DNA of 64,000 bases from an uncultured Myxococcales bacterium. GTDB lineage: Bacteria > Myxococcota_A > UBA9042. The DNA lies in NCBI GenBank assembly GCA_903929795.1, contig CAIYWC010000137.1, positions 34,566 through 98,565 of the forward strand, given 5' to 3'. The notes below the pieces were generated by a model, which was not told the origin of the DNA, made no database searches, and worked only from the letters and a program-made list of their open reading frames with translations. How positions within the stretch are numbered: position 1 is the stretch's first letter; each line of letters opens with the position of its first letter. Below, piece by piece: positions 23,219-46,275 of the stretch. The position numbers and the translations under genes are program-made.

Positions 23219-23230
23219 GTCGGTGTCGCA

Positions 23231-25863: not shown

Positions 25864-25868
25864 TCCGC

Positions 25869-28800
25869 GTGCCAAACGACCGCCCACAGGACGCCGTACT
25901 GACGCTGCACAACGACGTGCTCGCGCGCTTGGCGCCGGCGTCAAATGCCTTGAAGTCACAGGCGTTTCTCGGGTCGCTGGCCAAGGCGGAGCGGATGATG
26001 AACCGGCTGGCCGGGCTGAACACGGCGATGGCCGCCTTCTCGGCGCAGGCCTGGGCGATGGCGACCGCGCTGGTGGAGTCGCCGGCCCTGTGCGCGCGCC
26101 TGGGCCTCGACGCCCGCGTGCTGCGCCTGGACGAGCTGGCGGACCTGGTGCAGGTCGTGCTGGAGGAAGAGGCGCTGTTCGCGGCGGACGCGCTGGCCCA
26201 TCCTGGCGCCGAGCCTGGGCGCGCAGACTCGGCGAAATCGTCAAGCAGTCCAAGGCAATCGGCGCACGCGGCGCGACCATCGCTGCACCCCGCTCGCGCC
26301 CGCGCGCGCCCGCCGAAAGCCGAGGCGCTGGTCAAACGCGAAGTGCGGCGGCTGCTGCGGGAAGTCCGGAGCGCACTCGCTGACGCCGCCGCTGCGCCGG
26401 ATCGGCAAGCCCTGGGGTCTGTTGCCCCCGTCGAGCCGGGGTCTGCGGACCTCAGCGCGTCGGCTTCTGGCGCGCGTGCCGAGGGGCAGACGCCGCTCGT
26501 TGCGCAGCTCTCCGCTCCGGCGCTGGAGCGTTGGCGTGCGGCGACCAGGCAGTCCAGCCACCGACTTGACCCGCAGGCGCGCGCGGCGCAGACGACGCGG
26601 GAGGGTCAGTGGACGCACGCCGGGCTGGCGTCCGGGCGCGCGGGCGCAGGGCTGTCGCGGGCGCTGCGCTTGAACGAAGCCGCCGCCGATCTTGCGTTTC
26701 TCGCGACCGGCGCAGACGCCGCCGACGACCCGATGGGAGCCGGAGCCGCGGGCGCCGCGGCGTGGTGGGGCCGGGATCCGGGCGTTGCCAGCAATGCCGC
26801 TGGCCGCCGAACGCCGCGGACAGCGGCGGCAGCGGGCGAACGCGCAACGACTGCTGTCCCGGTGACGGTGCGCGCAAGCGACGCCTTGGGGCCTGCCCCA
26901 CGTCGCGGCCTGACGGCGGCGATCGCCCAGGCTGTTGCCTCGCTCCGTCAGGGCAGGGCGGTTGCGCGGCTGGCCGTTCCTGCGGCCGAGGTCCCAGCTG
27001 CGGGCGTCGTCGTAGCGCCAACGCGCGATTGGGCCGCGGCCCGACTGGCTGTCATGACGCCGCGCTGGCAGCGGACGCTCGGGGCGTGGGCGGACGCCGC
27101 TGCGCCGACGCCAGTCTCGACCGTTCGGTCAGGATTGCTGGCCGTGGGCGACACACGCGGCGCCGATCGCCCGGTGCCCGGCGAGGCCGCCGGCGTTCGC
27201 GTCGGCTATCGCGCTTCCGGATTTCGCGCCGGGCAGCTCTTGGCGCTGGCCCCGCCGTCGCAAGGCCCAGCTGCGCATCCCGCCCCTGCAGCTGCCGATC
27301 GTGCCGCCGGAACGCCGCGCTGGTTGGCGGGCGAAGCCCACGCAGCGGAGGGGACCCAGCGTGCGGCTGCGGCGGGTCCGGTCGGCCTGCGCGCGGGCGC
27401 ACTGGCAGACGCGCTCGCGGCGCGACACGGTGGTGACTTGGCGGGAGGTGTGGCGGAAAGTTTGGCGCGCGTCGCGGGAACGGCGCTGCAGCCCTGGCGA
27501 TCAGCGGCAGGCGGCTATCGCGCTCCACAGGCGGAGCGGGCGGTCCTGGCGCTGGGCGCGGCGGCGATGGAAGTCGGCGCGGACGCGGTGGTTGCGTCTC
27601 CTGAACGGCGCAGCGCGCACGCGTCTGCTGCCCGCGCGCCCTGGGCGAAAGCAGCGGCCGCCGCGGTCTCGGCGGTGGTTGCGCAGGCTTGGCAGCGAAC
27701 GCGGCGCGCACCGGTGGCCAAGCCGGGCCATGGCGTGCTGGAACTCGCGCGCGGCGAGTCGGCCGGTCAGCCAACGGCGCCGGGTGCGCGCGATGTGCCA
27801 CAGATTCTGACGGCGCGACCACAGGGTCGCACGGACGCGATCAGCGCGTGGCTCGCGGCGCCTTTGGCCTCCCCGGCGGTTGCGCGTGGAGTGCGCGCCA
27901 GTTCAGCAGGTGCTTGGCTGCAGCCAGGCGAGGCGCGAGGGTCGTCAGCGACCGCCATGGACGTGCCGCACGCAGCGAGAACGCCGCAAACGCTGGTCCC
28001 GGCGGCTGTTCGCGCGGCGCTCGCCGTCTTTGGGGAACGCGCGGTGGCGCCTGCAGATCGCTCCGTCGGCGCGGCTTACCTTGCGCGATTTCTGGGGCGG
28101 CCGGCGCCCGTCCGACAGCGCCGTGCGTTGGCAGATGAGCCGTGGACGACCGTGGCGTTGGCGGATGATACCGCGACGGAGCCCCAAGCGGCAGCGATGG
28201 ACGCTGGGCGTCATGCGGAAAAATCGCTTGAAAATCATCTAGCTGTGCGCGGAGAGCCGGTCTTGCGCGGCCTGGCGGCGCTTGAGGCGCTCCTGGCTGG
28301 CCCGGGCGCGGCCGACGCTCTGCTTGGCCAGGCGGCGGAACGCGAACTGCGCGTGAATGCCGCGGAACAGACGCTGCTGGCGCCCGCGGCCGATGCAGCC
28401 GAGGCGGCGGCCATGGACCTGTCGGTGCCGACCGCGCGAGTTGCACCACCGACTGTTGCCGCAGCCAAGGTGGCGCCGGCGTGGCCGTCCGCGCAGTTGC
28501 ACCGTTTTGCCCCGGTCGGCTTGGGGCGCGGGCGCGGCTTGCTCTCGCGCACCCGGGCTGCCGAGTCTGCCGCTCCCGCAGCGTTGGGTGCGCGTGCGAC
28601 AAACGCGCGGCCGTCCGGTGCAGCCTCGTGGACCGCGCGCCCGGCCGTCGTTTCGGGTGCGACGCCAGTCGGATATGGAACCTCGGCGCTGGGTGGCGGT
28701 GAGCTGCTCGGCCTGGGGTCAGGCGATGTGCTTGGATTCTTTGGCGAAAACGCGGCAGGTCCGACCGCGTTACGCGGGGCCGATGCACTGGCAAGTTGGG

Positions 28801-29441
28801 TCGCGGGCCGGCGCGGCGGGGCACCGATTCGCGGGCACGCTGCGGCTGTCGCTGGTTTCGGTGCGGCTGCCGGAGGTCAGGAGTTCGTCCGTCCCGAGGC
28901 GGGTGGTCCGGCCGCGTTTGGCGAAGCCGCCGCGCTGAATCCAGGGACCATGCCGACGAATTTCAGCTACCAGCAGGCGCAGGCGAGCGGCTCGACGTAT
29001 GCCCAATCGCCCCAAGCGACGCTGATCGAAGCCGGCGGGGCGGCGGCGCGTCAAGCCCAAGCGGCGGCACGCGCGACGGGCCCGACCGCGTCTGCGCGCG
29101 CGACCCAAGCCGGCGCAATGGCACGTGTATTGTCCGTGACCGACGCCCCGACGGCCAACATGCTGCCGCTCGTGGCACCGGCAGCCCACGCGGTTGTAAC
29201 GGCGGCGGCGGCGAAACCGCAATCCGAGCACCTTGTGACGAGCGGGTATGGGCCGAGCCAGGGCATGTCGGCGCGGTCGCTGCAGGGCGCTGCACACAGT
29301 GATGGCGCACAAGCTTCTGGAAATAACGGCGATTCTCCGGGACACGACGCGCAGGACATCGACGCGTTGGCGGCGAAGATCGCCCGTTCCGTCCTGTTGA
29401 GGATGCAACGCGAACGGGAACGCAGGGGGCAATATGGCTAG
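25869..29441 (+). CDS. Very large Ala-rich protein of the injection cluster (tape measure or cargo candidate)
   Basis: This 1190-residue ORF begins at GTG 25869, five bases after the tube stop, and overlaps the LysM gene by eight bases, so it is a genuine operon member. Residues about 1-105 look helical (LASNALKSQAFLGSLAKAERMM; DELADLVQVVLEEEALFAADAL). About a thousand residues of low-complexity Ala/Arg/Pro/Gly sequence follow. The last 30 residues form a charged helix (DIDALAAKIARSVLLRMQ, then RERERRG) like the C-terminal helix I recall in proteins next to the LysM gene of other injection systems. No enzymatic or toxin motif is seen. It could be the tape measure, a lumen protein, or an anchoring element; the function is not known. 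Confidence 0.8.
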   Translation: MPNDRPQDAVLTLHNDVLARLAPASNALKSQAFLGSLAKAERMMNRLAGLNTAMAAFSAQAWAMATALVESPALCARLGLDARVLRLDELADLVQVVLEEEALFAADALAHPGAEPGRADSAKSSSSPRQSAHAARPSLHPARARARPPKAEALVKREVRRLLREVRSALADAAAAPDRQALGSVAPVEPGSADLSASASGARAEGQTPLVAQLSAPALERWRAATRQSSHRLDPQARAAQTTREGQWTHAGLASGRAGAGLSRALRLNEAAADLAFLATGADAADDPMGAGAAGAAAWWGRDPGVASNAAGRRTPRTAAAAGERATTAVPVTVRASDALGPAPRRGLTAAIAQAVASLRQGRAVARLAVPAAEVPAAGVVVAPTRDWAAARLAVMTPRWQRTLGAWADAAAPTPVSTVRSGLLAVGDTRGADRPVPGEAAGVRVGYRASGFRAGQLLALAPPSQGPAAHPAPAAADRAAGTPRWLAGEAHAAEGTQRAAAAGPVGLRAGALADALAARHGGDLAGGVAESLARVAGTALQPWRSAAGGYRAPQAERAVLALGAAAMEVGADAVVASPERRSAHASAARAPWAKAAAAAVSAVVAQAWQRTRRAPVAKPGHGVLELARGESAGQPTAPGARDVPQILTARPQGRTDAISAWLAAPLASPAVARGVRASSAGAWLQPGEARGSSATAMDVPHAARTPQTLVPAAVRAALAVFGERAVAPADRSVGAAYLARFLGRPAPVRQRRALADEPWTTVALADDTATEPQAAAMDAGRHAEKSLENHLAVRGEPVLRGLAALEALLAGPGAADALLGQAAERELRVNAAEQTLLAPAADAAEAAAMDLSVPTARVAPPTVAAAKVAPAWPSAQLHRFAPVGLGRGRGLLSRTRAAESAAPAALGARATNARPSGAASWTARPAVVSGATPVGYGTSALGGGELLGLGSGDVLGFFGENAAGPTALRGADALASWVAGRRGGAPIRGHAAAVAGFGAAAGGQEFVRPEAGGPAAFGEAAALNPGTMPTNFSYQQAQASGSTYAQSPQATLIEAGGAAARQAQAAARATGPTASARATQAGAMARVLSVTDAPTANMLPLVAPAAHAVVTAAAAKPQSEHLVTSGYGPSQGMSARSLQGAAHSDGAQASGNNGDSPGHDAQDIDALAAKIARSVLLRMQRERERRGQYG

Positions 29442-30105
29442 TGGAAACCCGACGGGACAGCTCGTCCGCGCCATTTTGGACTTCCACGACAAAGTGGAAA
29501 ACGGCGTCGGCTTGGCGTTCCAGTTCAATCCGACCGAGATGACGATGTCCAAGTCGTCCACGCCGGTCGCGCAAAACACCGCGAACGCCAACGCGCCGGA
29601 CCAGCAGCACGTGACGGGCGGGCCGGCGACGCTGAAATTCGGCACCGTGTGGTTTGACACGTACGAGCAGGGCGAGAGCGTTTACCTGAACTATATCAGC
29701 AAGCTGGAGCGCATGGCGCACGTCGATGAGGACCTGCACCGGCCGCCGTACGTCGTGTTCATGTGGGGCGCGAATTTTGGCTCGGTCGCCGGTCAGACAC
29801 CGACGTATGTGTGGCAACTGGCTGATTTTTCAGTGACCTACACGATGTTTTTGCCCGATGCCACGCCGGTGCGCGCGAGCTGCACGATTACGCTGAAGGA
29901 AGTGCCGCAGGAGCAGACGCAGCTGAAGAGCCCGGACACCGCGCACGTGCGGCTGCTGCAGCGCGGGGACACATTGCAGGGGCTGGCGGCGGCGGAATAC
30001 GACGACCCGGCGCAGTGGCGGCGCATCGCGGAGGCAAACGGCATCGACGATCCGCTGAGCTTGACGCCGGGACGCCGCCTGCTGATTCCGCCGATTCTCA
30101 AGTAA
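29434..30105 (+). CDS. LysM-containing baseplate/tube-initiator adaptor (gp53/Pvc7-like)
   Basis: This is a 223-residue protein of the family that links hub, tube start and baseplate wedges in contractile injection systems. The N-terminal part (FQFNPTEMTMSKSST, TLKFGTVWFDTYEQGESVY, PPYVVFMWGANF, VWQLADFSVTYTMFLPDATP) is the characteristic fold. The C-terminus is a single LysM module (about 174-222: LLQRGDTLQGLAAAEYDDPA, WRRIAEANGIDDP). It overlaps the large Ala-rich gene by eight bases and precedes the hub gene, the usual order. Confidence 0.9.
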   Translation: MASGNPTGQLVRAILDFHDKVENGVGLAFQFNPTEMTMSKSSTPVAQNTANANAPDQQHVTGGPATLKFGTVWFDTYEQGESVYLNYISKLERMAHVDEDLHRPPYVVFMWGANFGSVAGQTPTYVWQLADFSVTYTMFLPDATPVRASCTITLKEVPQEQTQLKSPDTAHVRLLQRGDTLQGLAAAEYDDPAQWRRIAEANGIDDPLSLTPGRRLLIPPILK

Positions 30106-30144
30106 TTTCAATACATTTGCGACACTACGGCTCAGGAGCCACCC

Positions 30145-31302
30145 ATGCCGGACCGCCATGCACCGCAGCTGCTGATCAAGATCGACGGCTCGTACTCGTT
30201 GAAGACCGACACCGGCGAGACGTTCGACTTGCGCAATGGCACGGCCATCCTGGGCGCGCACGTGGACTTGCGTTTGGACAATCCGGACATGTTCACGGTC
30301 GAGTTCAACATGAAGAAATTCGCGAAGTTCGCGCTGCTGGATGCGTTCAAGCCCGGCGCGGAGGTGTCGATTTCCATGGGCCTGACGGACGCCGCCGTGG
30401 AGCTGTGCGTGGGCGAGATCGCCTACATCGAGCCGAGCTTTGACGCGGATCTGGGCTTTCGCACGACGATTTCCGGCTACCACAAGCTGCACCGGCTGAC
30501 GCGCGGTCAGCGCTCCAAGACCTGGGGCGACGGCCTGCAGGCGACCCAGACGCCGACAACGGCGGTGAAGCAGGTCATCGACGACTCCAAGTCGCAGCAA
30601 GGCGGCGCGTCGGATTCGCTGTCGACCGGCAAGCTGTCGTCGACGACGGTGAAGCACGATTACATTCCGCAGCTGAACGTCAGTGATTTCGAGTTCTTGC
30701 GGGCGATCGGCGCGAGCCTTGAATTCAAGGCGGATCCGACGGGCAACAAAGACGTGCAGTTCATCAAGCCCGACGCCAAGGCGACGCCGGTGAGCAAGCT
30801 GTCCTGGGAGCGGCCACAACCGGGCGACAAGACGGGTGGCCTGGTGCTGGCGGTGCAGCTGCGGCTGTCGACGGTACAGCAGTATTCCGCAGTAGAAGTG
30901 CGGAGTTGGGACTTCAAGACCAAGAAGAACATCGTCGGCATCGTCAAGTCGTCGACGTACGCGTTCACGGGCGAGGCGGGCGCGGAGATGGCGGGCAAGG
31001 CGCTGTACGGCAGCGCATCGTCGGGGCGAAAGTACGTGGTTGTTGACCAACCGGTCAACTCGAAGGAAGAGGCGCAGGCGCTCGCGCAGGCACTGTTTGA
31101 CCAGTTCAGCATGGACCTGCTGACCGGCGAGCTGACCGTGCAAGGCGACCCCAAGCTGCTGCCGGGCAAGACCGTTGAACTCGTCGGGTTTGGCAAGGCG
31201 TACACGGGCGTTTACCTCATCACCGCCGCGACGCACACTTACCGGCCGTCGGAAGGCTACCGCACGACCATCAGCGTCTCGCGCAACGTCAAGGGCAACT
31301 GA
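30145..31302 (+). CDS. gp27-like central hub (late control D/VgrG N-terminal type) without spike
   Basis: The 385-residue protein matches the gp27-like hub of contractile tails (phage late control gene D, VgrG N-terminus, Pvc8 N-terminus). Useful phrases are DVDL-type HVDLRLDNPDMFTVEFNMKK, VCVGEIAYIEPSFDADLGFRTTISGYHKLHRL, ISDFEFL-like NVSDFEFLRAIGASLEF, and the closing VELVGFGKAYTGVYLITAATHTY plus YRTTISVSRN. ATG 30145 follows AGGAG. It stops after the gp27-like part; no OB fold or beta-helix spike (gp5) follows. The 187-bp gap after it is AT-richer in its middle and holds no gene beyond the next start. Confidence 0.87.
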   Translation: MPDRHAPQLLIKIDGSYSLKTDTGETFDLRNGTAILGAHVDLRLDNPDMFTVEFNMKKFAKFALLDAFKPGAEVSISMGLTDAAVELCVGEIAYIEPSFDADLGFRTTISGYHKLHRLTRGQRSKTWGDGLQATQTPTTAVKQVIDDSKSQQGGASDSLSTGKLSSTTVKHDYIPQLNVSDFEFLRAIGASLEFKADPTGNKDVQFIKPDAKATPVSKLSWERPQPGDKTGGLVLAVQLRLSTVQQYSAVEVRSWDFKTKKNIVGIVKSSTYAFTGEAGAEMAGKALYGSASSGRKYVVVDQPVNSKEEAQALAQALFDQFSMDLLTGELTVQGDPKLLPGKTVELVGFGKAYTGVYLITAATHTYRPSEGYRTTISVSRNVKGN

Positions 31303-31489
31303 CCGATCGGTCAGGTCGAGGTCGTGCAAGCTTGCCGTTGGTGACGGGGCATCTTTTCCATTTATCACCTTGAAAATGCAGATAAAATCGCAAATTGCAA
31401 TGCAGCGATCTGCAGCGCCCTGGAGCCGGAGTTCGCGGCACGTTGACAGGCTGCCGCAACGCCAGCCATGCTCCGGCGCGGAGGGGAGC

Positions 31490-31687
31490 GTGCAGCCCAA
31501 CGACCTCGATCACGAAGAGCTGCTGCTGATGCTGGGCGACGTGCTGACGCAGGTCGCGTCCGGTCATGCGGACGGCCACCGCTGCCCGGTCTGCGAAAAC
31601 GCCGAGCTGGTCTGCAGCGCCGACGCCGGCAAAATAACCGTGCGCTGCCCCGGTTGTCGCCTCGACTTCGAAGGCTGGTTGGGTTGA
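31490..31687 (+). CDS. Miniature zinc-ribbon protein in the tail cluster
   Basis: This 65-residue protein starts at GTG 31490 behind GAGGGG. It has a short helical start (DLDHEELLLMLGDVLTQVAS) and then a two-knuckle zinc ribbon, HRCPVCENA and TVRCPGCRLDFEGW (CxxC-x17-CxxC). Its stop is one base before the gp25 start, so it is certainly cotranscribed with the baseplate genes. It occupies the place where a spike or PAAR gene often lies in related loci, but its motif differs from PAAR. It may be a structural zinc protein of the baseplate or an assembly factor. Confidence 0.75.
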   Translation: MQPNDLDHEELLLMLGDVLTQVASGHADGHRCPVCENAELVCSADAGKITVRCPGCRLDFEGWLG

Positions 31688-31688
31688 C

Positions 31689-32090
31689 ATGGCGCGCAGC
31701 TTCCTCGGCAAAGGCATCGCTTTTCCCTTGCGTCTCAATGCGTTCGGCGGCATGGCCATGGCTGACGGCTCCGACAACATCGAGCAGGGCATCCGCTCGA
31801 TCCTCGGCACGGCCATCGGCGAACGCGTCATGCGCCCGCTCTTTGGCTGCCGGATTCACGACTACGTCTTCCACCCGAACTCGCCTACCACCGCGGGATT
31901 TGTGGCGTTTTACGTCCGGGAAGCGCTGGACAAGTGGGAGCCGCGCATCCGCGACGTGGAGGTGCAAGCGGCGCCGGATGGCACGCACGCGTCGCAGCTG
32001 AACGTGACGATTCGCTACAAAATCATCGCCACAAACGAGGATCGCAACCTCGTCTATCCGTTTTACCTGCGGCGTGAGCAGGATCTGTAA
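31689..32090 (+). CDS. gp25-like baseplate wedge protein
   Basis: The 133-residue gp25/W-like protein couples the baseplate to sheath initiation. Recognisable are FLGKGIAFPLRLNAFGGMAM, EQGIRSILGTAIGERVMRP, FGCRIHDYVF, REALDKWEPRIRDVEVQ and the C-terminal VRYKI-type IRYKIIATNEDRNLVYPFYL. The EPR core motif that plugs into the sheath is intact (WEPRI). It is one base from the zinc-ribbon gene and 15 bases from the J-like gene. Confidence 0.93.
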   Translation: MARSFLGKGIAFPLRLNAFGGMAMADGSDNIEQGIRSILGTAIGERVMRPLFGCRIHDYVFHPNSPTTAGFVAFYVREALDKWEPRIRDVEVQAAPDGTHASQLNVTIRYKIIATNEDRNLVYPFYLRREQDL

Positions 32091-32105
32091 CCGGCCGGAG
32101 GGCAC

Positions 32106-35100
32106 ATGATCCCGAGTCCCAACCTAGACGACCGGACATTTGACGACATCGTCCAGGAAGCGATCCGCCTGATTCCGCAGTATTGCCCGGAGTGGACCAA
32201 CCACAATCCGTCGGATCCGGGGATCGCGCTGATCGAACTGTTCGCCTGGATGACCGAGATGACGCTGTATCGGCTGAACCGCGTGCCGGAGAAGAATTAC
32301 CTGGCGTTCCTTGAGCTGATGGGCGTGACGCTGGCGCCGCCGCAGCCGGCGCGGACGGTGCTGCAGTTTGCGATTCATCCCAAGGCGGATCGCGTGGTTG
32401 TGCCCGCGGGCACGCGCGTGGCGACCAAGCCGGGCCAGGACGGCAGCTCCGTGACGTTCGAGACGGACCACGAGATCACGGTCACGAACAACCAGCTGGT
32501 GAAGTGCCTGAGCCAGCACCATGACACGTTTTCCGACAACACGGCGCTGTTGGGCCGCAAGCGCGAAGGCGTCCCGATTTGGGCCGGTGTGCGCGCGCTG
32601 GAGCGGTTCCTGTACGTGTCGGACGCGCGGCTGGCGGCGTTCAACGAGTCCTCGATCCTGACGCTGCGGACGACGGCGCCGGCGGACGCGCAGACGCCGC
32701 TGTGCCGGATGCTGGAGTGGGAGTATTTTGACGGAGAACGGTGGCGTGAGCTGCAGCAGCCGTCGATCGACACGGACGCCGATCAGATCGCGCTGATCGG
32801 CCCGCTGGTGCCGCCGGGCGTGACCACGGTCGCCGAGCACGAGGGGCTCTGGCTGCGCGGCAAGCTGGCGGAGGTGCCGGCCAGCGCGGCGCAGACCGCC
32901 TGCGACGTGGTGCGGATGCGGCTGGAGCTGACCGGCGAGGGCGAGCAGGCGGAGCTGGCCTACTGCGTGCTGGACAGCGGGACGCAGTTTCGTCTGGACC
33001 TGGAACGCCACGTGCAGCCGTTTGGCAAGGAGCCCGCGCAGGATTTCGCGCTGTACCTGCTGTGCGAGCGCGTGCTGGGCCACGTGGATGCGGAGGTGCG
33101 GATCGACATCGAGATCGCCGACCCGTCCGTGGTGGAAGCGCCGCAGGCGAGCAAGGAATTGGTTATCGCGTGGGAATACTGGAGCGGTAAGCGCTGGAAA
33201 TTGCTAGGCAAATCCGGAATTGGCGAGTTTGACGAAGAGGACGCCGGCCTGGATTTTCGCGACGAGACGCGCTGCCTGACGAACTCGGGGCCGATTGCGT
33301 TCCGGCGGCCCAAGGACCTGCGATCGCTGGATTTTGGCGGCAAGGAAGGGCCGTGGATCCGCGCGCGCATTGAGCGCGGCGACTATGGCGCGCGCGGCAC
33401 GTACGAGCTGGAAAACGACCGATGGATGTGGAAAAACCCGCGGCCGCTGCGTCCGCCGACGTTGAAGAGCGTGGCGCTGCGGTTCGCGGAGCAGGAGCAC
33501 GCTTTTGACAAGGTGGTTGCGTACAACGATTTTGTCTACACGGACTTGACCGCGCAGGCGTCCGAACCGTTGAAGCCGTTCGTCGCGTTCACGCCGGTGA
33601 GCGAGGAGAGCCCGACCTTGTACCTCGGCTTTCGCGACCCGTTTTCCAATGAACGGCACCTGCTGTGGATGGATCTGGCCGACGGCGAAGGCAACGTCCG
33701 CAACTTGCGCGCGGGCGCGGGGAGCACGGCGCGGCACTTGGCGCAGTCGAACGCGGAGCAGCTGATCGCCTGGGAGTTCTGGAATGGCCGGGAATGGGCG
33801 GCGCTGAACGCGCGGGACCAGACGTGGGGCTTTGCGCAATCGGGGTTTCTGGAATTCGTCGGGCCCAAGGACCACCGCGCGAACAAGCGCTATGGCGAGA
33901 ACCTGTACTGGCTGCGGGCGCGGCTGGAGTTTGGCGGCTACGACGAGCTGCCCCTGTTGCGCGACGTGGTGCTGAACGCAGCGACGGCGTCGAACCTGAC
34001 GACGTATGGCGACACCGCGCTGGGCTCGTCCAACGGTACGCCGAACCAGGGCTTTCGGTTCGTGCGCGGCCCGGTGCTGCCCGGCGAGGAAATCTGGGTG
34101 CGCGAGCGCGAGCGGCCAACGGGCGTGGATTTGGACGCGCTGAAGACGGCGTTTGGCGAAAGCGCGGTGCAGGACGTCGGGCAGCCCGACGGCGGTGGAC
34201 CCGGCGAAGGCGTGCTGGTGCGCTGGCAGCAGGTCGACAGCCTGTACGAGTCGGCGGGCAACGCGCGGCACTACGTCAAGGACATCGTGAACAACGAGAT
34301 CCGTTTTGGCGACGGAATTCATGGACTTGTGCCGCCAAAAGGCGACCGCAACATCCTGTGCAAGCGCTACCAGGTCGGCGGCGGCGAGGAAGGCAACGTG
34401 CCGGCGGAGAGCTTGACCGTGCTGCTGCAGGCGGTGCCGTACGTGGAAAAAGTGCGCAATCTGCACGCTGGCGCGGGCGGTTGCAACCTGGAGACCGTGG
34501 AGCAGGCCAAGCGGCGCGGGCCCCACAGCTTGAAAGCGCGGGGCCGGGCGGTGACGGCGGAGGATTTTGAGTGGCTGGCGCTGGAGGCGTCGAACTCGGT
34601 CGCGCGCGTGTGTGCGCTGCCGACGCCCGAGCGCGAGGGCGAAGTGACGTTGGTAGTTGTGCCGAAAGTCGCTGAAAATCATCCGGATTTTCTGGAGAAG
34701 CCGATCCCGTCGACCGAGCTGCTGCGGCGCGTGCGCCACCATCTGGCCGATCGCAAGCTGCTGTCGACCGTGCTGAACGTGCGGCGGCCGGCGTTTCGCG
34801 AGCTGTCGGTGCAGGTGGACATCATCGTGCTGCAATCCGCCGGATCGGAGCGGGTCAAGCGCGAAATCCAGCGGCGGGTGCGCTGGTTTTTGCATCCACT
34901 CAAGGGCGGCCGCGACGGCAAAGGTTGGCCATTTGGCCGGCCGGTGTACCGCGTGGACCTGTACCACGTGATTGAGGACGTCCCGGGCGTCGATTTCGTG
35001 GATCGCGTGCGGCTTTTGGACGAATCGTCCAAGCTGGAAGTGGAGCAGTTCAAGGTCGCGCCGGGCGAGCTTGTGCATTGCGTGCGGGTGGACGTGGTCG

Positions 35101-35126
35101 AGAAGGCGCACGAGCGAATCGTCTAA
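32106..35126 (+). CDS. Baseplate assembly J-like wedge protein
   Basis: This is the largest baseplate subunit, 1006 residues, similar to the putative baseplate assembly protein of Pvc11/Afp11 type (gpJ/gp6 role). It starts at ATG 32106 behind GGAGGGC. The N-terminus (IPSPNLDDRTFDDIVQEAIR, IPQYCPEWTNHNPSDPGIAL, ELFAWMTEMTLYRLNRVPE) is diagnostic. Mid-regions show VRYGDG-type IRFGDGIHGLVPPKGDRN and the C-terminal half has the J-like TAEDFEWLALEASNSVARV. It forms wedges with gp25 and the gpI-like protein. Confidence 0.93.
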   Translation: MIPSPNLDDRTFDDIVQEAIRLIPQYCPEWTNHNPSDPGIALIELFAWMTEMTLYRLNRVPEKNYLAFLELMGVTLAPPQPARTVLQFAIHPKADRVVVPAGTRVATKPGQDGSSVTFETDHEITVTNNQLVKCLSQHHDTFSDNTALLGRKREGVPIWAGVRALERFLYVSDARLAAFNESSILTLRTTAPADAQTPLCRMLEWEYFDGERWRELQQPSIDTDADQIALIGPLVPPGVTTVAEHEGLWLRGKLAEVPASAAQTACDVVRMRLELTGEGEQAELAYCVLDSGTQFRLDLERHVQPFGKEPAQDFALYLLCERVLGHVDAEVRIDIEIADPSVVEAPQASKELVIAWEYWSGKRWKLLGKSGIGEFDEEDAGLDFRDETRCLTNSGPIAFRRPKDLRSLDFGGKEGPWIRARIERGDYGARGTYELENDRWMWKNPRPLRPPTLKSVALRFAEQEHAFDKVVAYNDFVYTDLTAQASEPLKPFVAFTPVSEESPTLYLGFRDPFSNERHLLWMDLADGEGNVRNLRAGAGSTARHLAQSNAEQLIAWEFWNGREWAALNARDQTWGFAQSGFLEFVGPKDHRANKRYGENLYWLRARLEFGGYDELPLLRDVVLNAATASNLTTYGDTALGSSNGTPNQGFRFVRGPVLPGEEIWVRERERPTGVDLDALKTAFGESAVQDVGQPDGGGPGEGVLVRWQQVDSLYESAGNARHYVKDIVNNEIRFGDGIHGLVPPKGDRNILCKRYQVGGGEEGNVPAESLTVLLQAVPYVEKVRNLHAGAGGCNLETVEQAKRRGPHSLKARGRAVTAEDFEWLALEASNSVARVCALPTPEREGEVTLVVVPKVAENHPDFLEKPIPSTELLRRVRHHLADRKLLSTVLNVRRPAFRELSVQVDIIVLQSAGSERVKREIQRRVRWFLHPLKGGRDGKGWPFGRPVYRVDLYHVIEDVPGVDFVDRVRLLDESSKLEVEQFKVAPGELVHCVRVDVVEKAHERIV

Positions 35127-35141
35127 GGAGTTTGCGTAGTT

Positions 35142-36023
35142 ATGGTCGATTCTGGCAACATGCGCAGCGCGCGGCAGGCGGAACGGCGGGGCCGCAAGGT
35201 CATCGTGCCGGAACTGACCGGCATGCGGCTGCGTGACGCGCAAATCGTGATTGCCCAAGCCGGTTTTGCCAACGCCGACGGCCAGCCGAACGTGCAGGTT
35301 CGCTACGTCGAGGCGTACGCCGAGGATTTTCAGGTCGTCGCGCAGTCGCCGATCCGCGGCCAATTGGTCGACGGCGCGGCGCCGATCGCGCTGCAGGTTG
35401 CGCGCAAAAGCTGGAGCCGGTTCCTGCCGCAGTTGTATTCGGTGGCCAACGAGGAAAACGCGCTTCTGCAGCAATTCCTATGGATGTTCCAACAGATCCA
35501 TGACAAGACCTCGGAGACGATCGACCGCGTGCCGGCCCTGCTGCGGCCGCTGGAGACCGACGCGCAGTACCTCCCGTGGCTGGGCTCCTGGCTGGCGCTG
35601 CATCTGGAAACCGACTGGACCGAGGCGCAAAAGCGCCAGTGGCTGCGGGTGGCGCCGGCGCTTTACAGCCAGCGCGGCACCAAGCACGCCCTGGCGACGC
35701 TGCTGCGGATGTACCTGGGCTTTGACGCCGAGATTCGCGAAAACGTCTGGCCTTTCGAGCCGTTCCGCGTGGGCGTGGCGTCGGAGATCGGCGTGTCGTC
35801 GACGATCCTGCCGCCGCTGAACCTGGCGCACTGCTTTGTCGTGCACCTGCCGGTGCCGGACAGCCACTTTTCCAACGAGCAAATCGTGCGGATTCACCGC
35901 GTGATTCTGGCCGAAAAGCCAGCGCATACGCTATATTACTTGACTTTTGCCCATGCCGACACGGTGGAGGACGGTTCGCCGTTTCTGACCATCGGCGATG
36001 ACGCCCTGAGCGCCGACAGTTAA
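35142..36023 (+). CDS. Tail protein I-like wedge protein fused to an N-terminal PASTA domain
   Basis: The 293-residue protein has two parts. Residues about 19-88 read as a PASTA domain: VIVPELTGMRLRDAQIVIAQ, AGFANADG, then VVAQSPIRGQLVDGAAPIAL. PASTA modules elsewhere bind peptidoglycan or beta-lactam-like ligands. Residues about 92-280 are a tail protein I/Pvc12-like domain: FLPQLYSVANEENALLQQFL, DRVPALLRPLETDAQYLPWL, APALYSQRGTKHALATLLRM, ending KPAHTLYYLTFAHAD. ATG 35142 follows AAGGAG. A PASTA module in a baseplate wedge could help the device grip or sense cell wall; this is inference. Confidence 0.85.
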   Translation: MVDSGNMRSARQAERRGRKVIVPELTGMRLRDAQIVIAQAGFANADGQPNVQVRYVEAYAEDFQVVAQSPIRGQLVDGAAPIALQVARKSWSRFLPQLYSVANEENALLQQFLWMFQQIHDKTSETIDRVPALLRPLETDAQYLPWLGSWLALHLETDWTEAQKRQWLRVAPALYSQRGTKHALATLLRMYLGFDAEIRENVWPFEPFRVGVASEIGVSSTILPPLNLAHCFVVHLPVPDSHFSNEQIVRIHRVILAEKPAHTLYYLTFAHADTVEDGSPFLTIGDDALSADS

Positions 36024-36047
36024 CCCGACGTAGCCTGCGAGGATGCG

Positions 36048-37589
36048 ATGGCAGAGATCACCGACAAGAACTTCAAGAGACTGAACTTTTTCCGCGGCTT
36101 TCGCACGTCGGAGACGGACTGGAACCAGGGCGAGCGCTACCACGTGGAAAAGCGCAAGCTGCACAACCGGATGCTCCACGGCCCGGGCGTCGTGCCGCAC
36201 GCGCTGGGCGGCTTCAAGGTGTCCGGGCGCGGGCGCGGCGAGCTGGCTGTGGAAATCCAGTCCGGCTACGCCATAGACGGCCAAGGCAACGACATCTTTT
36301 TGTGGGAACCGGAGATCAAGCAACTGAACCCGGTGGATTTCAAGTTGCCGACGACGGTGTATCTGGTGGCGCGGTACGTCGAGGAGCTGACCGATTTCAT
36401 TAGCTATAAAGAGAACTTGGACTTCAAGGGCCACCGGCGCGTCAGCGAGACGGCGAAAGTGGAATGGACTGTCGCGGAGCCGAATGCCGCCACCGAGATC
36501 GAGCTGTGTCGCATCGCGCTGAGCAAGGACGTGCGGCGGATTACCATGGCAAAATCCCCGCTTCAGCCCGGCGCGGACGAGATCGACACGCGGTTTGCGC
36601 CGACGGCGGGCATCGCGGGCAGCTTCCTGAGCCCGCAGCAGCTGTGGGCGATGACGGAGACGATCGCCAAGTCCAAGCAGATTTACGCGTATCTTTTTCA
36701 TCAGTTGCAAATCTGGCCCGCGGCGGATGTGCTGCACAGCTTCATCACGTTGGAAATGTTGCTGCACACGCAGCTGGTGGACCTGCGCAACGTCTTTGAT
36801 TTGCAAGCGATTGTTCTGGCACACCAGACGGTGCTGGTGACGAGCATCGAGACAAACCAGCCGGCGATCTCGAGTCAACGCGATTTTGCCAACTACAAAA
36901 AACACGTGGAAATCGCCGTGAAGCGCTATGACGAGCGCGTGTTCACGTCGGAATTCCTCACGGAATTGTTGAGTTACCAAAACGAGTGCCTGAAATTCAT
37001 GAACGCGCTGTTTGCCAAGAACCTGGACAGCTCGCCCAAGGTCCTGGAGCGCTCGACGGACACGAACGCGGTGATTGAGAGCATCAAGGTGCGGTCGGCG
37101 GCGTTCACGGACCAGCTGAGCATCGAGGGGCTGGACTTGGTGCTCATCGACACGCTGGACCCGCTGGACGCCGAGAGCGAGCGCAGCCATGCGTGGAAAG
37201 TCACCGGCGAGCGCGACAAATACCGCACGCGGCAGAAGCTGAAATACCCGGATGGCGCGGTGGTGGAAGACGCGGGCGTGGCGTTTGAGGGCGGGCAGCT
37301 GGAATTTGAGATGCGTAACATCGAGCCGGGCAAGGACGTGTACCTGATTTGGCGGACTGATTACGTGCACGGCGACTGGGAAGCGGAGGTCGAAGGCAAC
37401 GATCGGCGGCTGAAGAACGCGGTGTGCGCGGGCAGCGATCGCAAATTCCGCTGGCGTAACTGGGTGTACGTGGTCCCGGCGGAGCACGTGCGCGAAGTGG
37501 CCATGCGTTTCAAGTGGAAGCCGGTCACGGCCGACCGCGACCTGAACGTGTTCAAGATGTGGGCGTACCAGCCGGCAAAACGCGGGTAA
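36048..37589 (+). CDS. Tail-associated protein of 513 residues (wedge or fibre candidate)
   Basis: This is the last of the tightly spaced tail genes (24 bases after gpI). The N-terminus (LNFFRGFRTSETDWNQGERY, KRKLHNRMLHGPGVVPHAL) resembles the N-terminal module found in many contractile-system proteins that sit by the baseplate. A lipocalin-like AVEIQSGYAIDGQGNDIFLW stretch follows. The middle (about 190-350) is helical and the C-terminus (about 380-510) looks beta-rich (GGQLEFEMRNIEPGKDVYLI). No receptor-binding repeat is seen. It may be a baseplate periphery or fibre-anchor protein. A true fibre gene is not obvious elsewhere. Confidence 0.75.
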   Translation: MAEITDKNFKRLNFFRGFRTSETDWNQGERYHVEKRKLHNRMLHGPGVVPHALGGFKVSGRGRGELAVEIQSGYAIDGQGNDIFLWEPEIKQLNPVDFKLPTTVYLVARYVEELTDFISYKENLDFKGHRRVSETAKVEWTVAEPNAATEIELCRIALSKDVRRITMAKSPLQPGADEIDTRFAPTAGIAGSFLSPQQLWAMTETIAKSKQIYAYLFHQLQIWPAADVLHSFITLEMLLHTQLVDLRNVFDLQAIVLAHQTVLVTSIETNQPAISSQRDFANYKKHVEIAVKRYDERVFTSEFLTELLSYQNECLKFMNALFAKNLDSSPKVLERSTDTNAVIESIKVRSAAFTDQLSIEGLDLVLIDTLDPLDAESERSHAWKVTGERDKYRTRQKLKYPDGAVVEDAGVAFEGGQLEFEMRNIEPGKDVYLIWRTDYVHGDWEAEVEGNDRRLKNAVCAGSDRKFRWRNWVYVVPAEHVREVAMRFKWKPVTADRDLNVFKMWAYQPAKRG

Positions 37590-37970
37590 TGGAGTGTTTG
37601 AAGGCTCATCATTGAGTTGTATCGGGGATTTCGCCGATTTGTCCCCAGTTTGGGTGGGCCCCGACCCGCCACCGCCGCCATGGCCTCGGCCGACCTCCGG
37701 GCAAACCCGTCCGTCGGCGCGGGAAGCTCCACCCGTTGGACTTCCCTGCGCAATGTGCGCCGCGCGCATGGCTGACGCGCCCGCACGCCCCGGAGCGTGC
37801 GCGCGTGGCGACAGGGTAGTCACTGCCGCAGGAGAGTATTCGCGCGCCGGCGGCTTTTGCCGCGGATGGCGCCGGTGATTTTTCGCCACATCGCGCGCCG
37901 CCCGGCCGGCTCGGCGAATAATGCGCGGCGCTGCGGCGTTACAACGCAGAACCACTCCGGCCGAGGCACC
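37590..37970. other. Non-coding gap after the tail genes
   Basis: No credible gene is seen. The start has small inverted repeats such as ATCGG...CCGAT and GGGGA...TCCCC near 37625-37650, possibly a weak terminator for the tail operon. The rest is GC-rich and featureless. A 94-codon ORF here (37594-37878) has proline-rich shadow-like composition. Confidence 0.4.
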
Positions 37971-38450
37971 GTGTACCGCCGAATTCTCGCTCTCATCGCC
38001 GTCACCGTCGGCTTGTGGCACCTGGGCTGCGGCGCCGCCCACATCGATCGCGTGCAGACGTTCGAGCCGCGCGACTTACCGCGGCAGGCGACCGGGACGG
38101 GACGGGTCGCGGGGACGGCGTATTACATCGACGCCACGGGCGACTTGCACCTTCCGGTGCTGGGGCGAGTCAGGATGGGGCCGGACACGGCGTATCTCCG
38201 CGAGGAAGCGCAGCAACTGTCGGCGCAACTCCCGGTGGTGCTGGACCCGCCGCTGGACCCGCGCGCGGCGCCGTGGCTGGCGAAGACCGACGACCGCGGG
38301 CATTTCGAGTTTACGGACTTGCCGGCGGGCAAATTTCTGATTATCGCGGAGTATTCCTGGCTGTACGGGCGCGGCTATGCGACTCACCACGTCGCCCTTG
38401 GCCATGTGACACTCGCGGACGGCGAGACGGCAACCGTGCGCTTGGATTGA
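37971..38450 (+). CDS. Small lipoprotein with carboxypeptidase-regulatory-like fold
   Basis: From GTG 37971 the 159-residue product has a signal peptide (ILALIAVTVGLWHLGCG) with a lipobox-like HLGC, so it is probably a lipoprotein. The mature part contains TGRVAGTAYYIDATGDLHLP, a helix (AYLREEAQQLSAQL), and KTDDRGHFEFTDLPAGKFLI, which is the typical strand pattern of a carboxypeptidase regulatory-like (CnaB/transthyretin) domain. It lies between the tail genes and two FHA genes and may be a surface or periplasmic partner. The gap 38451-38708 after it shows no gene. Confidence 0.7.
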   Translation: MYRRILALIAVTVGLWHLGCGAAHIDRVQTFEPRDLPRQATGTGRVAGTAYYIDATGDLHLPVLGRVRMGPDTAYLREEAQQLSAQLPVVLDPPLDPRAAPWLAKTDDRGHFEFTDLPAGKFLIIAEYSWLYGRGYATHHVALGHVTLADGETATVRLD

Positions 38451-38708
38451 CTTTTCGTCCGCTCGGAAGTGCGCGTTCCCGCGCGCGACCTGCCCGGACC
38501 GCAGGACCGGTGCAGCCGGGCGGCGTCGCTGGGCACGCGTTCGTGTGTTTCCGCAGCCCAAGCGCCCAGACAGCACTTCTGATGTCGCGCTCCTCCGCCA
38601 CGGCCATTTTCCGGCGAATTTGCCCCGCCCCGCGATCTTGCCACCGGTCCAATCCGGTGCCATCCTCGCAGCGGTCGCGCGGGGCACGCGTCTCGCGGAG
38701 GGCAAGTC

Positions 38709-39341
38709 GTGATCGCCAACTTGATTGTCGACTTCTTTCGCAACCTTGGCCAACAGCGCATCGACGGCGTTGTGAACACGGCCAATGCCAAGAAGATGGG
38801 CGCGATCGCCAAGGCGAAGACTGAAGCTGCCAAGAAGTTTAACGCTGCCGTGGATGCGCCCGTCAAGGTCGCCAAGGGCGTCGTGAAGACGGACGGCATG
38901 AAGAAAGTGGACCCGAAAAAGGAGGGCGACGTGGGTTGGTTCAGCCGCAAGAAGCCCGAGCCGGCGCAGGAATCGCAGGGGTACGCCGAGCAGGATCGCA
39001 CGGTGGCGATCGACGTCAGCCAGTTCAACCGCGGCACGTTTCAGCCGTGTGTCGGCTGGGTCGTCGTGCGCACCGGCGAGCTCACGGGGCGCGATTTCCG
39101 TCTGGTCGATGGCAAGAATACGATTGGCACCGCTGCGGACTGCGACGTTGTGCTGACCGACCCGTATCTCTCGTCCAAGCAATGCGTGATTCGCTATGAA
39201 AATAGCACCTTTACGCTCGTTGACTTGGACTCGACCAACGGCACGTACTTGAACGATACACGCGTCTCCAAGGAAGACTTGATCGACAATGACACGATTC
39301 GCGTCGGCCGGACGGAGCTGAAATTCAAGGCGCTCGAGTAG
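38709..39341 (+). CDS. FHA-domain protein
   Basis: The 210-residue protein starts at GTG 38709. The N-terminal part (1-80) is basic and helical (NAKKMGAIAKAKTEAAKKFN). Residues about 110-210 form a forkhead-associated domain: TGRDFRLVDGKNTIGTAADC, DPYLSSKQCVIRYENS, DLDSTNGTYLNDTRV, RVGRTELKFKALE. The FHA core residues for phosphothreonine binding are partly present: the SxxxN pair appears as SKQC and STNGT, with the first motif GTAADCDV instead of the common GR-x-x-x-D. It probably binds phosphorylated partners, perhaps those made by the Ser/Thr kinase at 44875. It is followed 24 bases later by a VWA-FHA gene. Confidence 0.85.
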   Translation: MIANLIVDFFRNLGQQRIDGVVNTANAKKMGAIAKAKTEAAKKFNAAVDAPVKVAKGVVKTDGMKKVDPKKEGDVGWFSRKKPEPAQESQGYAEQDRTVAIDVSQFNRGTFQPCVGWVVVRTGELTGRDFRLVDGKNTIGTAADCDVVLTDPYLSSKQCVIRYENSTFTLVDLDSTNGTYLNDTRVSKEDLIDNDTIRVGRTELKFKALE

Positions 39342-39365
39342 GCCAAATTGTCCCGGAGGTAGTCG

Positions 39366-40895
39366 ATGTCCCTGAATTGCCACGGCTTGTTCCGCATGGT
39401 CGCGGCGTGCGCGCTGCTCGTGCTGGTGGCGCCCGCGTTCGCCGCGGAGAGTCGTGTCACGCTCGACCGGGTGGAGGTGGAGGCGAAGGAGAATTTCCTG
39501 CGGCTGCACGTGGATGTGCTGGATGCCAAGGGCGCGCCGGTGTCGAGTCTCGCGCCGGGCGACGTGGAGGTTCTCGCCAACGGCAAGCCGATCAAGCTGA
39601 CCGACATCGAGATCCAGACGGCTGAACAGGCGCAAGAGCCCGTCGCGATTGTGATTTTGCTCAATGCCTCGCGCGGCTACCAAATCCAGGGCGCGGGCGA
39701 AGAGCACGGCACGTTCCAGCAGGCCAAGGAAGGCGCGGCGCAGTTCATCCAGCGGCTCAAGGGCAACGACATGGTCGCGGTGGTCGTGTACCGCGAATCG
39801 GTGCCGCACGAGGTGGTGTATTCGTTCGCGTCGGATTTCAGCCAGGCCAAAGAGGCGGTGCTGAACTACAACGTGCCGGCGGCGGACCTGAATCCCGAGA
39901 ATAATCAGGGACAAGCGGCCCGGGAGCGCAGCCTGCTGCCGGAGTTTCAGAGCGCGGTCAAGAAGGTGCTCGACTTCTTCAACGACAACCTCGCATCGAA
40001 CACGAAGCTGGCGGGCGCGCACCGCCGGTTTCTCGTCATCCTGACCGACGCCAAGGATCGCGAGACGCGCAAGGACAAGCTGCAGCCCAAACTCAAGAAG
40101 ATGGTTGAGGAAAAGATTGAAGAGAACGGGATCCGCATCTTCGCCATCGGCTATTCGCCGGACGATGAGCAGTACCTGTCGCTGCTCCAGGACATCGCCA
40201 ACGTCTCCGGCGGCGCGTACACCTATGTGCCGAACAAGGACGGCCTGGGGCAAATTCCGTCGGTTTTTGATGCGATTGCGACGCGAATCAAGAAGCAGTA
40301 CATCATCAAGGCCAAATGGGCAGAGCTGCCGGACTGGGGCGACCCGGTCAAGGGCAAGGACGAGGCGAATTACGCCATCGGCTTGAAGGTCAAGATGAAG
40401 GACGGCGCCGAGGCCGAAGCCGCGTTCAACGACGTGCGACTGCCGCTGCCGAGTCTGAACTGGCTGAAATATCTGAAGATTGCCGGCATCGTGCTCGGCG
40501 GGCTGCTGGGCATTGTTCTGCTTGTGGCGCTCATCGTGTTCCTGGTGCGGCGCAAGAAAGCCGCGCCCGCGCAGGTCGAGACCAGGGCGGCGTATGACGG
40601 TCCGGCGCGCGGCAAGCTCGTCGTGCTCGCGGGGCCGTTGGCCGGCGAGACGTTCCCGCTGATCGACGACGTCACCACGATCGGCTCCATGAAAGGCAAC
40701 ACAATCGTCATCGCGGACGGCTCGATCTCGCGGCGTCACGCGGCCATCAAGATCGACCAAATGCGCTATGAAGTCGCGGACATGAACTCAACCAACGGCG
40801 TGCTCGTCAACGGTCAGCGCATCCACAAGGTGTTCATGAAGGACGGGGACCGCGTGCAGATCGGCACGACGGAATTGCAGTTCAATTTGAAGTAG
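39366..40895 (+). CDS. Membrane-anchored VWA-FHA protein
   Basis: The 509-residue protein carries a signal peptide (LLVLVAPAFAAES), a periplasmic VWA-like domain (about 95-320), a transmembrane helix (about 370-393: IAGIVLGGLLGIVLLVALIV) and a cytoplasmic FHA domain (about 415-508: VTTIGSMKGNTIVIADGSIS, MNSTNGVLVNGQRI, VQIGTTELQFNLK). The MIDAS motif DxSxS is degenerate (LLNASRGY), so the VWA domain may not bind metal. This layout suggests a transmembrane signal link from an extracytoplasmic VWA partner to a cytoplasmic phosphothreonine partner. It overlaps the convergent PAP2 gene by 14 bases. Confidence 0.87.
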   Translation: MSLNCHGLFRMVAACALLVLVAPAFAAESRVTLDRVEVEAKENFLRLHVDVLDAKGAPVSSLAPGDVEVLANGKPIKLTDIEIQTAEQAQEPVAIVILLNASRGYQIQGAGEEHGTFQQAKEGAAQFIQRLKGNDMVAVVVYRESVPHEVVYSFASDFSQAKEAVLNYNVPAADLNPENNQGQAARERSLLPEFQSAVKKVLDFFNDNLASNTKLAGAHRRFLVILTDAKDRETRKDKLQPKLKKMVEEKIEENGIRIFAIGYSPDDEQYLSLLQDIANVSGGAYTYVPNKDGLGQIPSVFDAIATRIKKQYIIKAKWAELPDWGDPVKGKDEANYAIGLKVKMKDGAEAEAAFNDVRLPLPSLNWLKYLKIAGIVLGGLLGIVLLVALIVFLVRRKKAAPAQVETRAAYDGPARGKLVVLAGPLAGETFPLIDDVTTIGSMKGNTIVIADGSISRRHAAIKIDQMRYEVADMNSTNGVLVNGQRIHKVFMKDGDRVQIGTTELQFNLK

Positions 40896-44874: not shown

Positions 44875-46275
44875 TCAGTCCGGTGGCACGACGGTGATGG
44901 GATCGTCTTTCGCGGCCGCGCGGTGCGGGTGCGCGTGCGCGGATCGCGCGCGGTGAGCGACCGGGCGCGGCGGCGTCATCGGCGTTTTCCGTGCAAGTTC
45001 AGGTGGTTCTGGCGCAGTCGTCGGCTCGGCAACCGGGGTGCGCGTCGGAGTCGGCTGGGGCGCGCTGGCCGGAGCCGGCGTGGGCACGGCTGCGGTCACG
45101 AGCGCGGGCGCCGGCGCTGGTCTGGTTGCCACCGGGTGCGCCTGCGCCGGCCACAGCCGGCTCACGAGCAGCAGCGTCAGGCTCCCGGCCGCCAGAAGCC
45201 AAGGAGTGGTATTTGTCCGCAAATTCAGCCACTTCTGCCGCAGCCGCGCGCTTGGCCTCTCACCGTCTGGCGGCGGCGCCACAGGCATCAGCCGCAGCGG
45301 GGAGGCCGTCCGGGTCTCCAGCGACCGAATCTCTCGGGATGGCGCGTCCTTGGCCACTTCCAGCGCGTGGCTCATCGCCTGCGCGTCGGCAAACCGCTCA
45401 TCCGGTGTCTTCGCCAGCGCGCGCATGATGACGTCCACAAAGCCCGCGGAAAGCGCCGTGCGCGCCACCGTCGCCAGATCGCGCGGCGCCACGTTGACGT
45501 GGTTGAACATGACGGTCAGCGCGTTCGGATCGTCAAAGGGCGACCGCCCGGATACGCAACGGTACAGAACCGCCGCCAGCGCGTAGAGATCGCTCCGGCC
45601 GTCGACCTCCACGCCGAGACACTGCTCCGGGCTCATGTAAGTCGGCGTTCCCATGAGCTTTCCAGTCGCAGTCAGCGACGATTCCTGCGTCTGGGCGATG
45701 CCGAAGTCCAGCACCTTCGCCCGCACCTGGCCGTCCTGGTCGTCCAGCATGATGTTGGCCGGCTTGATGTCGCGGTGCACCAGTCCCAGCGCGTGTGCTT
45801 CGGCGAGGCTCCCCAGCACTTGCAAGCCGATCGCAGTCGCGTCCGCTTCGCTCAGCACTTCCTCGTGGTCCAGCCGCTGGCGCAGCGTCGCCTCCAGCGA
45901 GTGGCCCTCGACCCGCTCCATCACCAAATACAGCGTGCGATCCGCGCTTTGGCCGGTATCCAGCACGCGGACGGTGTTGGGATGGTGAAGCCGCGCCAGA
46001 ATTTCCGCCTCGCGCTGGAAACGCCGCACGTGCGCTTCGTCGTCGCCGGTCTGCAGCAGGAGCTTGAGTGCCACGTCCCGGCGGGTCCGCGTGTCCAGCG
46101 CGCGAAACACGATGCCGTGGCCGCCACGGCCCAGCAGCCGGATCAGCCGGTAGCGCGCGCCTACGAGCATTCCCGCCCGCAGCGGCGTCGGCGCAAAATG
46201 CGGCAGCGACGACGACGCGGTCGCAGCGTGCAACTCTGCCACGAACGGATTGGTGTGGGCCGTCAGCCTCTCCAT
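44875..46275 (-). CDS. Serine/threonine protein kinase (Pkn type), membrane-anchored
   Basis: The 466-residue kinase has the glycine loop LLGRGGHGIVF (about residue 48), the lysine VALKLL, the catalytic loop HRDIKPANIML, DFGIAQ, the activation segment end GTPTYMSPEQ, and the APE-like P+1 region. A transmembrane segment (WLLAAGSLTLLLVSRLW) at about 355-371 leads to a Pro/Ala/Thr-rich extracytoplasmic tail with no PASTA or sensor domain. It could phosphorylate partners of the two FHA proteins at 38.7-40.9 kb, but this is inference. ATG 46275 faces the alkD-like gene across a 117-bp divergent region. Confidence 0.93.
   Translation of the reverse strand: MERLTAHTNPFVAELHAATASSSLPHFAPTPLRAGMLVGARYRLIRLLGRGGHGIVFRALDTRTRRDVALKLLLQTGDDEAHVRRFQREAEILARLHHPNTVRVLDTGQSADRTLYLVMERVEGHSLEATLRQRLDHEEVLSEADATAIGLQVLGSLAEAHALGLVHRDIKPANIMLDDQDGQVRAKVLDFGIAQTQESSLTATGKLMGTPTYMSPEQCLGVEVDGRSDLYALAAVLYRCVSGRSPFDDPNALTVMFNHVNVAPRDLATVARTALSAGFVDVIMRALAKTPDERFADAQAMSHALEVAKDAPSREIRSLETRTASPLRLMPVAPPPDGERPSARLRQKWLNLRTNTTPWLLAAGSLTLLLVSRLWPAQAHPVATRPAPAPALVTAAVPTPAPASAPQPTPTRTPVAEPTTAPEPPELARKTPMTPPRPVAHRARSAHAHPHRAAAKDDPITVVPPD

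Follow-up and report, generated by a model that had tools for sequence, protein, structure and literature searches.

The 64 kb stretch of DNA analysed here (the window; contig CAIYWC010000137.1 of the uncultured Myxococcales assembly GCA_903929795.1, a genome of 6.35 Mb in 236 contigs) carries a phage-tail-like contractile injection system (CIS) followed by two genes, one encoding a soluble FHA protein (FHA1) and the other a bitopic membrane protein in which a VWA domain is joined through a transmembrane segment to a second FHA domain (VWA-TM-FHA). These two genes belong to the CIS, and their linkage with it is real and old. We put at about even the chance that the pair constitutes a CIS-dedicated, inner-membrane-associated docking or trigger module, in which the FHA folds would serve mainly as phospho-independent adaptors.

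FHA1 (window positions 38709-39341, + strand) encodes 210 amino acids and consists of an N-terminal Ala/Lys-rich helix (approximately residues 2-55) and a C-terminal FHA domain (39120-39308, +; Pfam FHA 2.9e-19). After 24 bp it is followed on the same strand by VWA-TM-FHA (39366-40895; 509 amino acids; Pfam VWA 1e-7 and FHA 3.1e-18), which begins with a signal-peptide-like N-terminus (residues 1-26, 39366-39443; hydropathy 2.24 at residues 8-26) probably cleaved at ...APAFA/AES, and continues with the VWA domain (residues 95-295, 39648-40250), a single transmembrane segment (residues 375-393, 40488-40544; hydropathy 3.17) and the second FHA domain (40674-40865). Since the single transmembrane segment precedes an RRKK motif, the positive-inside rule predicts a periplasmic VWA domain and a cytoplasmic FHA domain. 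The Pfam matches and the topology prediction bear out the preliminary description of this locus, in which an FHA protein and a protein with signal peptide, VWA, transmembrane and FHA parts had been seen to follow the CIS on the same strand. Moreover, both FHA domains also match the Pfam family Yop-YscD_cpl. Purifying selection acts on both genes, with ratios of nonsynonymous to synonymous substitution rates (dN/dS) of 0.07-0.34 against same-genus and same-family homologues, and of 0.07-0.21 for FHA1. In the AlphaFold2 models, the FHA part of FHA1 reached a predicted local distance difference test score (pLDDT) of ~90 and VWA-TM-FHA a mean pLDDT of 82; both models retrieved GarA/OdhI-type FHA domains in Foldseek searches, and a BatB-type VWA matched the membrane protein with a TM-score of 0.65-0.67 by target length. 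A promoter and terminator scan gave no signal above shuffles. The idea that the pair derives from a prophage or virus was rejected, as no viral-contig relative was found and phage and plasmid records matched the FHA part only.

The conservation of this neighbourhood in other genomes, which had been proposed as a check, is evident, as the pair follows the CIS in the majority of the family's genomes and in further families of the class, with a like arrangement in other Myxococcota families. The order gpJ-gpI-Cis13-like-FHA1-VWA-FHA is common to most genomes of family f1, with small variations in families f3, f4, f6, f7 and f9, while blocks of the same order (Cis13-like, FHA1, VWA-FHA) are present elsewhere in the class in genomes G023, G024, G026, G029 and G032, and G034 has the same block with VWA-FHA 17 kb further along. 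Homologues of FHA1 were found in 36 of the 52 class genomes, every one of them CIS-bearing; the gene is present in 36/40 genomes with the Cis13-like marker vs 0/12 without it (Fisher 9e-9), and the exceptions include several in which the assembly is fragmented or the contig breaks off (G006, G039, G051). Among 379 Myxococcota genomes, with the presence of VWA-FHA called at a profile E <= 1e-30, VWA-FHA and the marker occurred together in 64, VWA-FHA only in 2, the marker only in 9 and neither in 304 (Fisher 6.5e-60), and at the family level the counts were 14 with both, 1 with VWA-FHA only, 3 with the marker only and at least 40 with neither (Fisher 9e-10), although all of these P values ignore shared ancestry. 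FHA/VWA genes spread over many genomes without a CIS, a pattern named beforehand as telling against the association, did not appear: only 2 of the 66 VWA-FHA genomes (G022 and G036) lack the marker, and G036 carries a CIS sheath.

FHA1 and VWA-FHA have stayed side by side in family f5 and G045, on a contig different from that of the CIS; in G007 the block is on another contig, and in G001 it is split by a rearrangement within the same contig. Because the loci have been separated repeatedly without loss of co-occurrence, a functional tie between the pair and the CIS is indicated. Chance proximity of FHA genes to the CIS was ruled out by a negative control, in which 53/53 generic FHA loci from the same pattern scan had no surrounding CIS genes. 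The rearrangement in G001 (loci L042/L043) took place within the genus; as a result, the Cis13-like gene and the FHA/VWA pair are ~27 kb apart, with neighbouring housekeeping genes in the intervening sequence.

Canonical FHA domains hold the phosphate with an Arg in the loop after beta-3, preceded by the Gly that ends this strand (GR). At this site FHA1 reads GT (codon 39129-39131), whereas its PDB relatives FhaA and GarA align there with GR. Thr occupies the Arg site in 25/25 class homologues, and 26 further homologues (from the class, f30, f36 and f48) have Thr in 15, Ala in 10 and Lys in 1, so that the phosphothreonine-reading Arg is found in 0/51 homologues, while 21/28 other FHA domains of the window's genome keep it. 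The loss in FHA1, a point not noticed in the preliminary description, is therefore uniform and old and not a drift of a single species. The FHA domain of VWA-TM-FHA reads GS in the window, and its homologues retain the Arg in 19/62 cases and otherwise mostly have Ser. In addition, the metal ion-dependent adhesion site (MIDAS) of the VWA domain is degenerate, as had been proposed: the window reads LLNASRGY, and the first Asp of the metal-binding DxSxS motif (Asp100) is replaced in all aligned members, with the later Asp228 kept.

In the explanation that we favour, VWA-TM-FHA would be an inner-membrane protein that exposes a VWA domain devoid of its metal site to the periplasm, where this domain might act in sensing or in oligomerisation, and an FHA domain to the cytoplasm; the soluble FHA1 might bridge this FHA domain to the CIS baseplate at its Cis13-like/gpI/gpJ end. 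The tail-like particle could be docked at the inner membrane in this way and/or a firing signal be relayed to it, as with CisA in Streptomyces, and firing might perhaps be triggered by events seen by the periplasmic VWA domain. The FHA folds would act mainly as fixed protein-protein adaptors, as in SctD/PrgH of the type III secretion system (T3SS). Several points weigh against this explanation. Docking, bridging, baseplate contact and signal are steps that we infer; the N-terminal helix of FHA1 has low confidence in the AlphaFold2 model; the VWA-FHA homologues that keep the Arg include those of family f5; in f5, in f48 and in a handful of further genomes, the pair does not adjoin the CIS; in one class genome, G022, a VWA-FHA gene is present but no CIS was found; and the co-occurrence statistics carry the ancestry limit given above. 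Kinases are a further point, since a Ser/Thr kinase stands in the same operon, 3' of VWA-FHA, in 8 genomes of family f30, and f47 and f48 have Ser/Thr kinases in the vicinity of the CIS.

These kinases speak for a control by threonine phosphorylation as with PpkA/Fha1 of the type VI secretion system (T6SS), in which a kinase would mark a protein of the CIS or of the FHA cassette, an FHA domain would bind the mark and firing would be licensed, with the VWA domain sensing the envelope. We consider this fairly unlikely. It gains from the Arg of the 19 VWA-FHA homologues, from a further FHA protein with GR in f38, from an f1-wide kinase whose gene is close to a second sheath/Pvc16 locus in the majority of genomes that allowed both to be placed, and from T6SS PpkA, whose VWA sensor domain is likewise outside the membrane (PMC3224232). 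On the other side stand the uniform lack of the phosphate-holding Arg in FHA1 and the distribution of the kinases, of which the CIS flanks fetched from most class genomes, and those from f36, f38 and f58, showed none. A conserved cluster kinase like PpkA is not kept beside the pair in the genus or the class, and the operon kinase, which is a different one, is confined to f30; its place in that operon means that kinase input could reach the system by another route.

The phospho-signalling loop envisaged in the preliminary description relied on a Ser/Thr kinase 4 kb downstream (44875-46275; Pfam Pkinase 2.3e-47). The distance is correct, but the gene is on the - strand, convergent with the pair and behind three other genes of that strand, so that the order 3' of VWA-TM-FHA is PAP2, FGE-sulfatase/Lcl, TPR and kinase. 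No kinase was found at the corresponding spot in the same-genus genomes G001, G002 and G003, for each of which 5-13 kb of downstream sequence was available. Identity between the window kinase and either the kinase of the f30 operon or the f1 kinase close to the second sheath is 33-38%, compared with 43-52% among the f30 kinases and 51% among those of f1. As the window's genome has ~68 Pkinase domains above the cut-off, one within ~6 kb is expected by chance in ~15% of cases. The window kinase, which is thus on the opposite strand, absent from that spot in the same-genus genomes, one of ~68 and not orthologous to the f30 and f1 kinases, was rejected as a partner of the module, and the loop built on it, which the missing Arg of FHA1 weakens as well, lacks support in that form. 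The f1 kinase (L046:5143-6756, - strand; G000:C117:19907-21508) has one clear orthologue per f1 genome (~50-69% identical); in the majority of f1 genomes in which both it and these neighbours could be located, it is near the genes for SurE, phosphoribosyltransferase and Pvc16/second sheath. It was also tried as a universal CIS kinase and rejected, its orthologues being found in f1 only and its nearest neighbours being the SurE and phosphoribosyltransferase genes.

The pair might instead consist of assembly factors that nucleate baseplate assembly at the membrane or control its quality, without a role in firing, for which the position directly after the baseplate genes, the strong sequence constraint on FHA1 and the function of FHA-bearing SctD proteins as T3SS assembly scaffolds (PMC3635987) could be taken as evidence. 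The pair is, however, at a separate locus in f5, and a few genomes with a CIS, some of them fragmented assemblies, may lack it; the CIS core may therefore assemble without the pair, and we regard a role restricted to assembly as quite unlikely. Effector genes are common at the ends of CIS clusters, and G022 has its VWA-FHA gene without a CIS, yet it is very unlikely that the two proteins are cargo, such as effector or immunity proteins, or envelope proteins unrelated to the CIS whose genes happen to lie next to it, given that their sequences are conserved over families and not fast-evolving, that co-occurrence persists after separation from the cluster, that no toxin domain was found in either protein with Pfam, and that a protein with a signal peptide and a transmembrane segment is improbable as tube cargo.

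The CIS itself occupies 22689-37589 on the + strand, as found by Pfam, PHROG and NCBIfam scans of the window proteins, and combines sheath, tube, gp25, gpJ, gpI and hub genes in one cluster, as is typical of extracellular contractile injection systems (eCIS) and phage-like protein-translocation structures (PLTS). It begins with a tail assembly chaperone-like protein (22689-23060; PHROG 508, E 1.6e-5; 75-96% identity within the class), the tail sheath (23231-24985; Pfam Phage_sheath_1 2.9e-18) and the inner tube protein (24982-25863; TIGR02241 3.5e-19, NCBIfam CIS5 2.5e-12). These are followed by a long low-complexity protein (25869-29441), without a family match, that may be the tape measure and whose position is kept across the family, by a CIS tube adaptor with LysM (29434-30105; Pfam CIS_tube 2.5e-20), and by a GPD/hub-spike protein (30145-31302; PHROG tail protein 2e-26; Pfam Phage_GPD 8.8e-7, slightly below its cut-off). 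The baseplate part comprises a gp25-type wedge protein (31689-32090; Pfam GPW_gp25 2.2e-24), a gpJ-type wedge protein (32106-35126; Pfam Baseplate_J 6.5e-20), a gpI-type protein (35142-36023; Pfam Tail_P2_I 6.2e-15) and a Cis13-like protein of 513 amino acids (36048-37589), whose match to NCBIfam NF053767 CIS13_fam (E 4.7e-8, residues 8-121) is weak and well below the cut-off. The Cis13-like gene is the commonest gene directly 5' of FHA1 and is 43-93% conserved within the class where complete. Among the window proteins scanned, there were no capsid, terminase or portal proteins, no T3SS genes and, with Pfam, no TssJLM/TssK of the T6SS membrane complex. A second, highly conserved sheath (~81-96% identical to the f1 query) is present in f1 and other class genomes, accompanied in several by a Pvc16_N gene (L046:9162-10463 and relatives; G000:C117:390-1568), and either precedes the main CIS or lies on a separate contig, the latter being the case in the window's genome.

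Between the Cis13-like gene and FHA1 there are ~1.1 kb in the window (37590-38708), which include a putative lipoprotein open reading frame (ORF; 37971-38450, + strand; lipobox WHLGC). This ORF had been grouped with the FHA/VWA genes, a grouping that does not hold, as the ORF is not conserved and has no homologue in any relative locus fetched. It was rejected as a member of the module; in the same-genus genome G003, just 84 bp separate FHA1 from the Cis13-like gene.

The arrangement recurs with variations in other Myxococcota families, and the module is therefore older than the window's class. The f30 operon comprises gpJ, gpI, Cis13-like, FHA1, VWA-TM-FHA, a PEGA/TPR protein, a TSP3/Reg_prop protein, the Ser/Thr kinase and a PKD protein; such extended CIS/FHA operons are found at loci L289-L292 and L297-L300, their TSP3 protein is of the two-component-propeller type, and FHA1 in L290 carries a zinc ribbon. 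In f36, f38 and f58, a cassette of several FHA ORFs comes after the Cis13-like gene. Those of f38 (L309, L310, L311) amount to ~5 consecutive FHA ORFs directly 3' of that gene, and the last of them, of 840-1023 amino acids, retains the canonical GR. In f41 (G136), a VWA-FHA-like gene lies immediately 5' of the chaperone and sheath genes. The VWA part appears to be diverged or absent in f38, f41 and f42, since the profile matches chiefly the FHA part there. A Myxococcota CIS/FHA locus is also carried by L164, a public record named Klebsiella pneumoniae MAG (metagenome-assembled genome) MaH-04nov19-278, a name that is very probably a mislabel. It is a tentative proposal, to which we give somewhat less than even chances, that all these loci represent an undescribed, Myxococcota-wide class of cell-retained CIS, membrane-docked by the VWA-TM-FHA and FHA module, whose FHA domains would have given up phospho-reading for fixed docking and which, in certain lineages, would have grown into cassettes of three to five FHA proteins or been re-coupled to a kinase.

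Published routes by which tail-like injectors other than the T6SS attach to, and are triggered at, the membrane of their producer include the baseplate extension of the cyanobacterial thylakoid-anchored system (tCIS) and CisA (SCO4242) of Streptomyces coelicolor, a bitopic membrane protein needed for contraction of cytoplasmic CIS (PMC12237407). A 2025 study reported eCIS/PLTS clusters in Myxococcota known from MAGs only (mostly UBA796), with a tube gene highly transcribed in the field (PMC11937823); these clusters are phage-tail-like, as is the one described here, and neither FHA nor VWA genes come up in the section that the study devotes to them. In open-licence papers, a scope outside which the main eCIS census (Chen et al. 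2019) falls, no description of FHA or VWA genes in non-T6SS CIS was found.

Several known systems share features with the pair. T6SS control by PpkA/PppA/Fha1, as in the Pseudomonas H1-T6SS (PMC3224232), also has an FHA protein beside a contractile system and a VWA sensor outside the membrane, but in the window the kinase is a separate and non-conserved gene, FHA1 lacks the Arg and no T6SS membrane complex is encoded among the proteins scanned. The T3SS proteins SctD/PrgH/YscD resemble VWA-TM-FHA as membrane proteins with a cytoplasmic FHA domain whose phosphothreonine-binding residues are poorly conserved; the FHA domain of PrgH has been judged unlikely to bind phosphothreonine, and its deletion results in immature, secretion-incompetent basal bodies (PMC3635987). 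VWA-TM-FHA is nevertheless not a ring protein of this type, as SctD has an N-terminal FHA domain and ring-building periplasmic domains, whereas here the domain order is reversed, with FHA at the C-terminus and a periplasmic VWA in place of the ring domains. FHA domains that stand beside a contractile system and lack the phosphothreonine-reading residue call for caution against phospho-control deduced from FHA annotation.

A further likeness is to CisA. The slot right after the baseplate genes is taken by tail fibres in conventional eCIS and by CisA in Streptomyces (PMC12237407), and VWA-TM-FHA is likewise predicted to be single-pass, is CIS-linked and lies just 3' of the baseplate genes, a likeness that concerns how the proteins might work and makes no claim of homology. 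By description of their domains the two proteins differ: in CisA, the cytoplasmic N-terminus is disordered and the C-terminal domain, which is outside, is solute-binding-like (PMC12237407), whereas VWA-TM-FHA would expose an N-terminal VWA domain, keep its FHA domain in the cytoplasm and have a second, soluble FHA protein as partner. If the docking and trigger function holds true, the two genes, as a membrane module conserved across Myxococcota, would add a route to those of tCIS and CisA, and would suggest that these CIS, too, act from inside the cell.

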